Shown: positions 20,874 to 24,815 of the stretch, piece by piece | How positions within the stretch are numbered: the stretch's first letter is position 1 | How the letters are laid out: every line of letters begins with the position of its first letter | Made by a program: the position numbers and the translations under genes | The notes under the pieces: model-generated | What the model saw: only the letters and a program-made list of their open reading frames with translations | What the model was told of the DNA's origin: nothing | Databases searched by the model: none | Assembly (NCBI GenBank): GCA_021813445.1 | Contig: JAKAKP010000157.1 | Location: 1 to 34,384 of the forward strand | DNA: 34,384 nt | Source of the DNA: Deltaproteobacteria bacterium | GTDB lineage: Bacteria; Desulfobacterota; Desulfobaccia; Desulfobaccales; 0-14-0-80-60-11 | Reading direction: 5' to 3'

Positions 20874-22427
20874 ATGAAAACCGTGGCCCAGCGGGTCAAA
20901 GAACTGCAGGAGAAAGAGGCCCGGGTGAAGGGGATGGGTGGGTTGAAGGCGGTGGAGAAGCAGCATGCTGCCGGGAAGCTCACGGCCCGGGAGCGGTTGG
21001 ACCTCTTTTTTGATCCCGGGACCTTTCGGGAGACCGATCTGTTTGTCACCCACCGGTGCGTCAACTTCGGCATGGAAAAGGTGGAGATCCCCGCGGACGG
21101 GGTGATCACCGGCTTCGGCAAAGTCCAGGGGCGCCCGGTCTTTGCCTTTTCCCAGGACTTTACGAGCCGGGCCGGGTCCTTGGGGGAGATGCACAGCAAA
21201 AAGATCTGCAAGGTCATGGACCTGGCGCTGAAAGCCGGCGTCCCCTTCGTGGGCTTCAACGACTCCGGCGGCGCCCGCATCCAGGAAGGGGTGGATTCGC
21301 TCTCCGGCTACGGCCAGATTTTCTATAGGAACGCCATCGCCAGTGGGGTCATCCCCCAGATTTCGGCCATCATGGGCCCCACCGCGGGGGGCGCGGTCTA
21401 CTCCCCGGCCATGACGGACTTCATCTTCATGGTGAAAAAGACTTCGTATATGTTCATCACCGGCCCGGACGTGATCAAGAGCGTCACCGGCGAAGAGATC
21501 ACCTTCGAGGACCTGGGCGGGGCCATGGCCCACAACCAGAAGAGCGGCGTGGCCCACTTCGCGGGGGAATCCGACCAGGACACCATCGAGCAGATCAAGA
21601 CGCTGCTGTCGTATCTGCCCAGCAACAACATGGAAGACCCGCCCCTGGTCCCCTGCGCCGACCCGGCGAACCGCCAGGAGCCGGCCCTGGACGCCATCGT
21701 CCCGGACAGCGCCCGGGCCTCCTATGATATGTACGACGTGATCAAGGCCATCGTCGACAACGGCGAGATCTTCGAGCCCCAGGCCTTATATGCCCGGAAC
21801 ATCATCACCGCGTTCGCCCGGTTAGGCGGCCGCTCCGTGGGCATCATCGCCAACCAGCCCACGGTCATGGCGGGGTGTCTCGACGTGGACGCGGCGGACA
21901 AGGCCTGCCGCTTCATCCGCTTCTGCGACGCGTTCAACGTGCCGCTCTTGACCATCGCCGATGTGCCCGGGTATCTGCCTGGCAGCGACCAGGAATGGCG
22001 GGGCATCATCCGGCACGGCGCCAAGCTCCTGTGGTGCTACTCCGAGGCCACGGTGCCCAAGCTCACCCTGGTGACCCGCAAGGACTACGGCGGGTCGTAT
22101 CTGGCCATGTGCTCCCGGGACCTGGGCGCGGACCTGGTCCTGGCCTGGCCCACCGCCGAGATCGCGGTCATGGGCGCGTCCGGCGCGGCCAACGTCATCT
22201 TCCGGAAAGAGATCGCGGCCGCGGCGGACCCCGCGGCCAAGCGCCAGGAGATTATCGACAACTACGAGAACCTGCTCTACAACCCCTACATTGCTGCGTC
22301 CCGGGGTTTTGTGGACCAGGTGATCCTGCCCCGGGAGACGAGGCCGAGGCTGATCGAGGCCCTGGAGACTTTGAGCACCAAGCGGGAGACGCTGCCCGCC
22401 AAGAAGCACGGGAACATCCCGGTTTAA
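20874..22427 (+). CDS. Biotin-dependent carboxyltransferase, 12S/propionyl-CoA carboxylase beta type
   Basis: A 517-aa acyl-CoA carboxyltransferase that moves the carboxyl group between carboxybiotin and an acyl-CoA (propionyl/methylmalonyl-CoA expected). N-terminal crotonase-like half: GGLKAVEKQHAAGKLTARERLD and oxyanion segments FNDSGGARIQEGVDSLSGYG and GPTAGGAVYSPAMTDF. C-terminal half: VADVPGYLPGSDQEWRGIIRHGAKLL and GASGAANVIF, where the second oxyanion hole lies. GAGGAG precedes the ATG by 7 nt. It is followed by a small gene and by a 5S-type subunit fused to a biotin carrier, so the set fits methylmalonyl-CoA:pyruvate transcarboxylase rather than a biotin-carboxylase-dependent enzyme; no biotin carboxylase gene is in the window. 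Confidence 0.93.
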   Translation: MKTVAQRVKELQEKEARVKGMGGLKAVEKQHAAGKLTARERLDLFFDPGTFRETDLFVTHRCVNFGMEKVEIPADGVITGFGKVQGRPVFAFSQDFTSRAGSLGEMHSKKICKVMDLALKAGVPFVGFNDSGGARIQEGVDSLSGYGQIFYRNAIASGVIPQISAIMGPTAGGAVYSPAMTDFIFMVKKTSYMFITGPDVIKSVTGEEITFEDLGGAMAHNQKSGVAHFAGESDQDTIEQIKTLLSYLPSNNMEDPPLVPCADPANRQEPALDAIVPDSARASYDMYDVIKAIVDNGEIFEPQALYARNIITAFARLGGRSVGIIANQPTVMAGCLDVDAADKACRFIRFCDAFNVPLLTIADVPGYLPGSDQEWRGIIRHGAKLLWCYSEATVPKLTLVTRKDYGGSYLAMCSRDLGADLVLAWPTAEIAVMGASGAANVIFRKEIAAAADPAAKRQEIIDNYENLLYNPYIAASRGFVDQVILPRETRPRLIEALETLSTKRETLPAKKHGNIPV

Positions 22428-22432
22428 AAATT

Positions 22433-22506
22433 AGTTCCAAGTTCAAGGTTCAAGGTTCAAAGTTGGACCTGAAAAACCTTGAACCTTGAACTTTGAACCT
22501 TGAACT
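22433..22506. repeat. 74-bp hairpin repeat, copy A
   Basis: A run of TTCAAGG-type heptamers on the left (about 22433-22464) is mirrored as CCTTGAA heptamers on the right (about 22476-22506), giving a long imperfect hairpin. It starts 5 nt after the 12S-type subunit stop. It is 71/74 identical to copy B at 22725-22798 in direct orientation. Confidence 0.85.
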
Positions 22507-22525
22507 CAAAACCGACGAGGTTGAG

Positions 22526-22726
22526 ATGTCCATCAAACCCCAAATTCTAGCGGCCATCAGCGGGGCGATTTCCGCGTATATCGCCGATGAAGAGGCCTGC
22601 CAGGCCGCGGCCTTGGCGGCCAGCGCGGCCCAGGTCCCGGCTCCGCCTGCCAACCTCTGGGGCCTGGCGGGCCGCAGCGCGGCCATGCAGATGCGGCTGC
22701 TGATGCAGCGGCGCTCGTTGAGGTAG
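22526..22726 (+). CDS. 66-aa small protein of the carboxyltransferase operon
   Basis: A 66-aa protein, MSIKPQILAAISGAISAYIA…, with a central Ala-rich, Pro-containing stretch (about 30-45) and a basic tail (NLWGLAGRSAAMQMRLLMQRR). The Ala/Pro linker followed by an amphipathic basic segment recalls small accessory (delta/epsilon/gamma-type) subunits of biotin-dependent decarboxylases, which anchor or assemble the larger subunits. GAGGTTGAG precedes ATG 22526. It lies between the 12S-type and 5S-type genes, bracketed by hairpin repeats; its stop overlaps copy B by 2 nt. Accessory subunit is the best guess. Confidence 0.72.
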   Translation: MSIKPQILAAISGAISAYIADEEACQAAALAASAAQVPAPPANLWGLAGRSAAMQMRLLMQRRSLR

Positions 22727-22798
22727 TTCCAAGTTCAAGGTTCAAGGTTCAAAGTTGGGCCTTAAAAACCTTGAACTTTGAACTTTGAACCTTGAACT
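22725..22798. repeat. 74-bp hairpin repeat, copy B
   Basis: A direct repeat of copy A with three substitutions over 74 bp, again built from TTCAAGG heptamers and their mirror. It begins within the TAG stop of the small gene and ends 68 bp before the 5S-type subunit. Together with copy A it flanks the small gene. Confidence 0.85.
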
Positions 22799-22865
22799 GA
22801 TAGCTGAAATTGGTGCGTAGGACGCACCCTACCGAAGACCGAAAACCGAAAACAGGAGTTTTGAA

Positions 22866-24815
22866 ATGGCCGGAAAAAACCCCATCAAATTCACGGACAC
22901 CACCTTCCGGGACGGCCACCAGTCTTTGCTGGCCACCCGGATGCGCACCGAAGACATCGTGCCCTTCATGGAACGCATGGACCAGATGGGCTATTGGGCC
23001 ATCGAGGTCTGGGGTGGCGCCACCTTTGACACCACCCACCGCTTCCTGGGCGACGACCCCTGGGAGCGCATCCGCACCATCAAGGGGATCTTGAAGAAGA
23101 CCCCCACCATGATGCTGCTGCGGGGCCAAAACCTGGTGGGCTACCGCAACTACGCGGACGACCTCACCTACCGCTTCGTGCGCTACACCGCGGAAGCGGG
23201 CGTGGACGTCTTCCGGGTCTTTGACGCGCTTAACGACATGCGCAACTGGGAAGTGTCGGTGAAGGCCCTGATGGACGCCAAGAAGCAGGGCCTGATGGCC
23301 CATTTCCAGGCCGCGGTCTGCTATTCCCTGACGCAAAGGCGCATGGGCGGCCCCATCTTCAACCTGAAATACTACGTGGACTTCGCCAAGCGTTGCGAAG
23401 ACATGGGCGCGGATTCCTTCGTGCTCAAGGACATGGCGGGCATGGTCTCTCCGAATGACGCCTATGAAATCATCAAGGCCATTAAAGAAACTATAAAAAT
23501 CCCGGTGGAATTCCACACCCACTACACCTCGGGCCAGGGCTCCATGAGCTACTTGAAGGCCATCGAGGCGGGCGTGGACGTGCTGGACACCTGCCTTTCG
23601 CCCTTTGCGCTGCGCACCTCCCAGCCCGCGATCGAGCCCCTGCTGGTGGCGGTGGAGCAGACGGAGCGGGAAACGGACATGGATCTGGCCAAGCTCATCG
23701 AGATCGGCCAGGACCTGGAGAAGGTGGCGGTGAAATACCGGGATCTGCTGGATACCTCGAAGATGGCCCAGATCGACACCGGGGTGCTCCTGCACCAGAT
23801 TCCCGGCGGCATGTACTCGAACCTGGTGAACCAGCTCAAAGAGGCCAACGCCCTGGACCGGATCCTGGAGGTAATGGCGGACCTGCCCCAGACCCGGAAA
23901 GAGCTGGGCTACCCGCCGCTCGTTACCCCCACCTCCCAGATCGTGGGCATCCAGGCGGTGATGAACGTGCTCTTCGGGCGCTACCAGATGGTGCCCGCGG
24001 AGGTCAAGGGCCTGGCCTACGGCCTCTACGGCAAGACGCCCGCGCCCATGGACAAAAAGGTGCAAAAGATCATTTTGAAGGGCTACGAGCGGGGCGAGAC
24101 CCCCACCACCAAGCGGCCCGGGGAGATCCTCGAGCCCGAGTGGGACAAGGCGGTGGCCGACACCAAGGGCCTGGCCAAAAACGACGGCGACGTCCTGATC
24201 TATGCGCTCTATCCCACCACCGGCCAGCGCTTCCTCAAGTGGAAGTATGGGCTGGAGCCCATCCCGGATGAAGTGAAGGCCAAGACCCTGGAGCAGGTGA
24301 AGCTGGAGGACGAGGTCTATTCCACCATCAAGTCCAAAAAGCTCTTCGCCAAGGTCAAGGAGCTCCTGGATTCCCTGGAGAAGGCGGCCCCGGAGAAAGG
24401 CCCGGGCTTGCGCACCTTCAACGTCTTCGTGGACGGGCAGTACTACGCGGTGGAAGTGGAGTGCACCTCCGGCGCGCCGGTCTTGACCGGCGTCACCCCC
24501 ATGCCCATGCCTGGTGGCCCAGGCTTCCAGCCTGTGGCGGTCGCGGCTCCCAAACCCGCGGCCGCGGCCCCCGCGACGGAAGCCACCCTGGCCTCCGGCG
24601 ACGTGCCCTTGCGGGCCCCCATGCCGGGGATGATCATCAGTTACGGGGTGAAAGTGGGCGACAAAGTGGCCACGGGCGACCTGGTCTGCGTGCTGGAGGC
24701 CATGAAGATGCAAAACAGCCTCCCCGCCCCCGCGTCCGGCACCATCAAAGCCATCAACTTCGAACCCGGCGCCAGCGTCGCCAAAGACGCCATCATCCTG
24801 GTCATCGGGAAGTAG
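22866..24815 (+). CDS. Pyruvate/oxaloacetate carboxyltransferase (5S type) fused to biotin carrier domain
   Basis: A 649-aa fusion. Residues about 5-280 are a DRE-TIM-type barrel that carboxylates pyruvate or decarboxylates oxaloacetate: metal/catalytic residues D11 (FTDTTFRDGHQS), K188 (FVLKDMAG, the carbamylated lysine position), H217 and H219 (EFHTHYTSG). Residues about 300-500 are the conserved carboxylase domain (PYC_OADA). A Pro/Ala-rich linker (550-575) leads to a biotinyl domain (about 580-649) with biotin-attachment K614 in EAMKMQN. It resembles OadA and pyruvate carboxylase subunit B. With the 12S-type gene upstream and no membrane beta subunit, transcarboxylase is favoured over a sodium-pumping decarboxylase. 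The AUG is preceded by AGGAG. Confidence 0.93.
   Translation: MAGKNPIKFTDTTFRDGHQSLLATRMRTEDIVPFMERMDQMGYWAIEVWGGATFDTTHRFLGDDPWERIRTIKGILKKTPTMMLLRGQNLVGYRNYADDLTYRFVRYTAEAGVDVFRVFDALNDMRNWEVSVKALMDAKKQGLMAHFQAAVCYSLTQRRMGGPIFNLKYYVDFAKRCEDMGADSFVLKDMAGMVSPNDAYEIIKAIKETIKIPVEFHTHYTSGQGSMSYLKAIEAGVDVLDTCLSPFALRTSQPAIEPLLVAVEQTERETDMDLAKLIEIGQDLEKVAVKYRDLLDTSKMAQIDTGVLLHQIPGGMYSNLVNQLKEANALDRILEVMADLPQTRKELGYPPLVTPTSQIVGIQAVMNVLFGRYQMVPAEVKGLAYGLYGKTPAPMDKKVQKIILKGYERGETPTTKRPGEILEPEWDKAVADTKGLAKNDGDVLIYALYPTTGQRFLKWKYGLEPIPDEVKAKTLEQVKLEDEVYSTIKSKKLFAKVKELLDSLEKAAPEKGPGLRTFNVFVDGQYYAVEVECTSGAPVLTGVTPMPMPGGPGFQPVAVAAPKPAAAAPATEATLASGDVPLRAPMPGMIISYGVKVGDKVATGDLVCVLEAMKMQNSLPAPASGTIKAINFEPGASVAKDAIILVIGK

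Follow-up and report, generated by a model that had tools for sequence, protein, structure and literature searches.

What are two almost identical hairpins doing around a small gene in the carboxylase region of a deltaproteobacterial genome: do they serve the genes that they separate, or are they there on their own account? The window analysed here is a stretch of 34,384 nt, which is contig C28 of a host genome of 4.18 Mb in 166 contigs; in it, a 66-aa ORF sits between a carboxyltransferase (PF01039) and a PYC_OADA/biotin_lipoyl carboxylase gene, with one hairpin on either side (Table 1).

Two heptamer hairpins around a small gene

As noted in the preliminary description of the window, two near-identical 74-nt hairpins (71 of 74 positions the same, 3 different) bracket the 66-aa ORF, and one overlaps its stop codon. 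The copies start 292 nt apart and are palindromes built from TTCAARG and CYTTGAA heptamers (TTCAAGG/TTCAAAG); the TAG stop (22724–22726) shares two nucleotides with the second copy. The designation of the 66-aa protein as a "small subunit" was not confirmed, as a Pfam search found no domain in it. Folded as RNA, hairpins 1 and 2 reach −36.1 and −42.2 kcal/mol, with z-scores of −7.1 and −7.9, respectively, against 200 dinucleotide shuffles; their loops measure about 14 nt and contain no ORF for an S23 protein (see below). The window holds five period-7 arrays and none of period 5, 6, 8, 9, or 10. An array overlooked initially, ACCGAAG/ACCGAAA just upstream of the PYC gene, is of the heptamer type flanking one of the S23 genes (L170) of the host genome. 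A known RNA family was considered and rejected: cmscan of positions 22000–23200 returned 35 matches, all under the gathering scores and taken as chance, and almost all were to microRNA-precursor models, which fit any long hairpin.

Table 1. Features of the intergenic stretches around the 66-aa ORF (positions in the window)
Feature	Position	Strand	Context	Basis
Carboxyltransferase gene (context)	20874..22427	+		PF01039
Hairpin 1, TTCAARG	22433..22506		directly after carboxyltransferase stop codon	inverted pairs; RNA fold
Hairpin 1 left arm, + array	22433..22465	+		period-7 array
Hairpin 1 right arm, − array	22474..22506	−		period-7 array
66-aa ORF	22526..22726	+	between hairpins	ORF; relatives in G013, G014
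Hairpin 2, TTCAARG	22725..22798		overlaps 66-aa ORF stop by 2 nt	RNA fold
Hairpin 2 left arm, + array	22725..22757	+		period-7 array
Hairpin 2 right arm, − array	22766..22798	−		period-7 array
Second-family array, ACCGAAG/ACCGAAA	22830..22855	+	near right edge of same intergenic stretch
PYC_OADA/biotin_lipoyl carboxylase gene (context)	22866..24815	+		PF02436, PF00682, PF00364

The site is polymorphic within the genus, not as a clean pair of filled and empty sites. Relatives of the 66-aa ORF are encoded in a genus-mate (G013, 77% identity), which has both hairpins at the matching places, and in a sister genome (G014, 85%), which keeps the gene without TTCAARG hairpins; there, an AGTAGTC/AGTGGCC array directly follows the carboxyltransferase stop and an AGCTATC-type array the 66-aa stop, which indicates that different heptamer families use the same gene edges. 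In G015–G018, no match to the carboxyltransferase stretch was found, so the whole locus, not the small gene alone, is absent or too diverged.

A dispersed repeat with fixed polarity

A genome-wide count of the repeat, suggested earlier as a check, was run: the double-heptamer pattern TTCAARGTTCAARG gave 142+146 matches (288), as compared to 4+6 (10) for the reversed control. The preliminary description had held that a repeat ubiquitous at random intergenic sites, with no effect on transcript levels, would speak against a role at this locus; as far as place is concerned this is largely the case, 80 of 83 arrays lying outside called genes in a partly ascertained sample made up of the window, 40 loci picked for the repeat, and 20 unbiased stretches. 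In the same sample, the left intergenic edge is the nearer one for 36 of 40 + arrays and the right one for 34 of 40 − arrays, independent of gene strand and of whether a start or a stop is at the edge; these edge counts are approximate because the crude ORF caller behind them miscalls some genes (its 80-aa limit misses the 66-aa gene, and in the window it may prefer an antisense ORF to the PYC gene opposite). Per intergenic region, the array order is +− (22), − (17), + (16), or +−+ (1).

Twenty-four +/− array pairs, with loops of 13–329 nt, have sharp ends: AG precedes the first TTCAA and CT follows the last TTGAA, the first outward position being complementary in 23/24 pairs and the second in 18/24, as compared to 6–9/24 at later positions. 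The family of the window hairpins shows both the fixed inward polarity and the AG...CT ends. At 118 loci from many phyla, retrieved with the exact heptamer pattern, neighbouring arrays are ordered +− (37), ++ (19), −− (17), and −+ (2). Interiors of at least 400 nt contain an S23 gene in 3/3 +..− pairs; as a whole, pair interiors are mostly unrelated to each other, and no convincing S23 remnant was found in them. A shared MITE body was considered and dropped, just three pairs of interiors being alike. One of the observations made on the loops is that those of L139 (3548–3774) and L143 (2115–2336) share an 89-nt stretch, 82% identical and rich in the GGGGGATTT palindrome, that is, a second repeat nested inside.

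The proposal that the hairpins set relative subunit expression has to be weighed at this point. Selected RNA elements through which processing or stabilisation adjusts the relative expression of the three genes in the carboxylase region would be very stable, as these hairpins are, and would be kept in a relative, as both are in G013; further, RNase III cuts an element of the same anatomy, the intervening sequence (IVS) of Coxiella, according to the part of PMC4990558 drawn on here, which makes processing of the window hairpins plausible as a by-product. However, the repeat follows intergenic edges genome-wide regardless of gene strand, and in G014 the gene is present, these hairpins are not, and heptamers of other families occupy the two edges; a device dedicated to the subunit ratio is therefore unlikely.

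S23 genes between inverted heptamer arrays

In the 23S rRNA IVS of Coxiella, two to three tandem GACAGAT heptamers precede an S23p ORF, and the terminal repeats pair as a 28-bp stem in which RNase III cuts have been mapped (PMC4990558, in the part used); mobility of the IVS was proposed by Ralph and McClelland in 1993 (cited in the same part). In CPR bacteria, insertions in 16S and 23S likewise contain ORFs for such intervening-sequence proteins (IVP), which the section of PMC11270868 that we used terms functionally uncharacterised. The fold of S23 has been solved (XCC0516 of Xanthomonas campestris, PDB 2gsc).

S23/23S_rRNA_IVP four-helix-bundle genes (PF05635) are generally flanked by inverted heptamer arrays; this holds for the class of the host, for plasmids, and for genomes from several phyla. 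The host genome has four such genes: one (L172/L160) is flanked on both sides by TTCAARG arrays, and the other three by TTTTCGG and GTCTTYG, both as inverted arms, and by AGTGGTC. The window heptamer is identical to the one flanking L172/L160 and other TTCAARG-type S23 genes; within the class, the latter have a − array on both sides, the + array being farther upstream or missing. S23-like ORFs are present at 6 of the 118 exact-pattern loci, each within 39 nt of an array; one of these loci, L123, belongs to a genome of the host's genus.

In a strict tandem test of 67 S23 genes of the class, period-7 arrays were detected upstream of 30, downstream of 31, and on at least one side of 41, as compared to 0/670 shuffles; most of the remaining 26 show degenerate heptamers by eye, which the strict test missed, and a threshold-free best-lag test with controls was therefore added. 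Among lags 4–13, lag 7 is best upstream of S23 genes in 81, 77, and 62% and downstream in 77, 56, and 65% of cases for the class (n = 68), plasmids (n = 16, selected by S23 alone), and other genomes (n = 29, a non-random set since the genomes were reached via TTCAARG loci, the heptamers of their S23 genes being unselected), respectively, while it is best in 11–12% of control genes (n = 404); the runner-up at S23 flanks, lag 8, accounts for 10–20%. The two flanks of the same S23 gene match each other in inverted orientation over at least 15 nt in 43/65 (class), 10/16 (plasmids), and 14/26 (other genomes) cases, as compared to 3, 0, and 0 with swapped partners and 1/120 for control genes. The plasmid loci (from cyanobacteria, Riemerella, Azospirillum, and Gemmatirosa; 16 of 25 records found) include exceptions: L247 has no array, L248, L249, and L254 have a short right array only, and L260 (Gemmatirosa, ~1400–1990) is flanked by a period-8, not a period-7, repeat. 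PF05635 is present in 47 of 50 genomes reached via TTCAARG loci as opposed to 0 of 14 well-known control genomes; tblastn found no S23 match in phages. At L225 (G022:C1:3064000-3068000), whole and partial S23 genes with the heptamer GAGGACT form a tandem cluster, as if amplified in place, with further S23 matches up to C1:3086641.

Heptamers are specific to S23 lineages and diverge in step with S23 itself. The heptamers on the two sides of a single S23 gene, upstream and downstream, are at most one letter apart in 59/64 cases (6/64 when swapped). Heptamers within one letter of each other are found for 70% of S23 pairs with >70% identity, 32% at 55–70%, 7% at 45–55%, and 2–4% below 45%, and a correlation as strong was reached in 0/500 Mantel permutations, the test comprising the 100 of 119 S23 genes with a callable heptamer (19 left out; 6/119 chosen by heptamer). 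For pairs across source groups with >55% identity the share is 52%. The S23 proteins nearest L172 carry TTCAARG or near variants, including L308/L109 from Bacteroidales and L010 from Armatimonadetes. GAGGACT, which flanks S23 in G022, occurs among 29 genomes of the class in G022, G019, and G020, and once in G027, only; TTCAARG was matched just once in G022, against 20 matches for S23.

Most dispersed arrays of the host genome carry the heptamers of S23 flanks. In 400 kb of the host genome unselected for repeats there are 35 period-7 arrays (0–9 for other periods, 1 in a local shuffle), of which 28 are intergenic while ~80% of the sequence is coding. For 26/35 arrays, exactly the same heptamer is present next to an S23 gene somewhere in the class (null mean 2.0, max 18), and for 35/35 one within a single letter of it (null mean 16.6, max 30). 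Outside the TTCAARG family, orientation at the edge is concordant with the S23 flanks in 11 of 18 arrays, with five more not callable. Among 198 genomes of the phylum, which are not independent of each other, 64/110 with PF05635 have array matches as compared to 12/88 without (Fisher 9.6e-11), and 30/110 as compared to 3/88 have at least five (Fisher 4.3e-6). The PF05635-negative genomes G208, G240, and G248 have 7, 10, and 14 TTCAARG double-heptamer matches; incomplete bins or loss of the gene are possible there.

The arrays might also be ordinary heptanucleotide microsatellites (LSSR/STRR) arisen by replication slippage, with adjacency to S23 a matter of chance. The window arrays do qualify as heptanucleotide SSRs, being tandem heptamers longer than chance, and resemble families for which the parts of the publications used here leave the origin unexplained: TAACTGA (PMC4679880), GGGAATC of Xanthomonas, said to be generally not associated with mobile elements (PMC4692102), and the heptamers of Geobacter (PMC2700814). 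These, too, are intergenic, genome-wide, and sometimes inverted, and in the parts at hand none of the three accounts mentions S23 or arrays framing it. Among long simple repeats, those with heptamer units are the commonest type in many bacteria (Mrazek 2007, as cited in the available part of PMC4679880), and their copy number in the IVS varies between Coxiella strains (PMC4990558, same part as above). Yet slippage alone would not produce a fixed polarity, and the sharp ends, the excess at S23 flanks far beyond control genes, the co-variation of heptamer and S23 sequence, and sites empty of both arrays and S23 (see below) further argue against it, which makes this origin improbable. Two S23-flanking heptamers come close to repeats already described: GGGGAGT at L250 (Nostoc edaphicum plasmid) is, if the phase is the same, one letter from the Nostoc 7120 heptamer GGGGA(C/T)T, for which the part of PMC4692102 used gives no explanation, and ACTGATC at L240 (G016:C481) is one letter from a rotation of TAACTGA, the Beggiatoaceae/cyanobacterial repeat.

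Joint insertion and the origin of the window hairpins

Related plasmids provide filled and empty sites. The Trichormus locus L249 has arrays and S23, while two plasmids with flanks 97–98% identical (L343, L344) have neither; at the junctions an 8-nt stretch is repeated with one mismatch. L245 is filled and L352, L354, and L248 are empty exactly at a TAATG stop/start overlap, where 3 nt are shared, and elsewhere in this family of plasmids, at a different site, L248 is filled and L245 empty (5 nt shared). The junction repeats of S23 elements are thus short and unequal (8 nt with a mismatch, 5, and 3), and as the empty sites lack array and S23 alike, both arrive together. The empty alleles of L250, L252, L253, L254, and L257 differ by 11–273 nt, and precise junctions could not be set there. 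S23 genes are also found between cas6 and cas4, between cas10 and a cmr3-family gene, and between ribonucleotide reductase genes, and related plasmids lack them at these cas and ribonucleotide reductase positions; the S23 elements within CRISPR-Cas operons (cas6–cas4, cas10–cmr3) are those of the cyanobacterial plasmids L251, L252, and L257. L349, with a left array and the first part of an S23 gene followed by a break, looks like a decayed copy.

The reverse order of events, in which arrays came first and serve as landing pads into which S23 elements insert, would fit the far greater number of arrays than of S23 genes and, for TTCAARG-type S23 genes in the class, the shared orientation of the arrays to their left and right. 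It is nevertheless hardly likely, since the empty sites for L249, L245, and L248 are free of arrays, array and gene appearing together, and since the heptamer tracks the S23 lineage.

REP/REPIN sequences with their RAYT (Y1) transposases are likewise dispersed palindromes that occur in inverted pairs, and the host genome has five Y1_Tnp matches besides its intergenic palindromes. That RAYTs move the hairpins is nonetheless very improbable: REP/REPINs are built on a single palindrome instead of heptamer arrays, and none of the five Y1_Tnp loci (~3 kb each) has a double heptamer adjoining it, whereas S23 loci have arrays on both sides. Finally, that the direct repeats serve recombinational excision of the 66-aa gene, for which their identity (71/74) and 292-nt spacing speak, can practically be dismissed: no genome was seen with a single hairpin and no gene, and G015–G018 lack a match to the carboxyltransferase as well.

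The best reading is that of an IVS-like mobile family with S23 that lives mostly outside rRNA. As in the IVS of Coxiella, long suspected to be mobile in the part of its description used here, an S23 ORF, adjoining tandem heptamers, and inverted arms forming a long stem belong together; unlike it, the elements described here lie between protein genes, have many copies, are mostly without ORF, and use many lineage-specific heptamers. The window hairpins themselves have the inverted arms with a long stem and the tandem heptamers at the arms, but lie between carboxylase genes, not inside a 23S rRNA gene, and have no S23 ORF between their arms, which other loci do. With MITEs and Correia elements, the latter of which interact with RNase III (PMC2649163, in the part used), they share being small, intergenic, gene-less, and bounded by inverted repeats; they differ in their apparent partner, a four-helix-bundle protein, and in having interiors that are not conserved. 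No transposase with matching ends was found by genome-wide profile searches (PF05635, PF01797); the ends match those of S23 elements. We know of no transposition activity of S23. The Avd protein of diversity-generating retroelements also folds as a four-helix bundle; S23 gave best E-values of 6.6e-5 and 5.3e-5 with its models PF22296 and NF033474, below the curated cut-offs.

We consider it likely, with a probability of roughly 0.7, that the window hairpins belong, as decayed or non-autonomous copies without S23, to a family of small mobile elements whose full form comprises a heptamer array, an S23/23S_rRNA_IVP gene, and an inverted array of the same heptamer. The TTCAARG hairpins would have been spread by, or have decayed from, TTCAARG-type S23 elements, pairs such as those of the window originating from decay or from mobilisation in trans by S23. 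S23 may recognise its own heptamer in DNA or RNA and would have to recruit a host activity, because neither a transposase nor a nuclease domain can be recognised in it; elements inserted at gene edges would be tolerated, as both genes are spared. If transcribed, the arms would pair and RNase III might cut them as in the rRNA IVS, any effect on neighbouring mRNAs being secondary. Counting against this reading are that only one of the four host S23 genes has TTCAARG arrays as compared to 80 and more dispersed arrays, that the three genomes named above bear arrays and are S23-negative, that within the class a − array lies on each flank of the TTCAARG-type S23 genes, that the junction repeats of S23 elements are short and unequal, that the edge orientation of the other families is weak, and that pair interiors lack a convincing S23 remnant; for the TTCAARG hairpin itself, no filled/empty pair with a target-site duplication was obtained.

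A wider proposal is a conjecture to which we give somewhat less than even odds: many phyla might have miniature mobile elements of a class of which S23 proteins are the defining component. Every lineage would disperse arrays of its particular heptamer in inverted pairs that frame gene edges, and would do so with no transposase or reverse transcriptase that can be recognised, perhaps by way of an RNA that RNase III sets free as intermediate; the rRNA IVS would then be one niche, and much of the STRR/LSSR load of bacteria debris. In the open-access literature, we found no report tying S23 genes outside rRNA to heptamer arrays.

For hairpins of this kind, the findings are a warning against treating them as gene-specific regulators. 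The reading given here could join two loose ends, the role of the S23/IVP "four helix bundle protein", a frequent protein in many groups of bacteria, and the excess of intergenic heptamer repeats in bacteria, and may account for the puzzling heptamer repeats of many bacterial genomes. The heptamer beside each S23 gene amounts to a lineage-specific prediction of what the protein binds. If S23 does recognise and spread its own heptamers, it would represent a type of mobile element with a very small coding part, and the new question would be which host enzyme cuts and copies.
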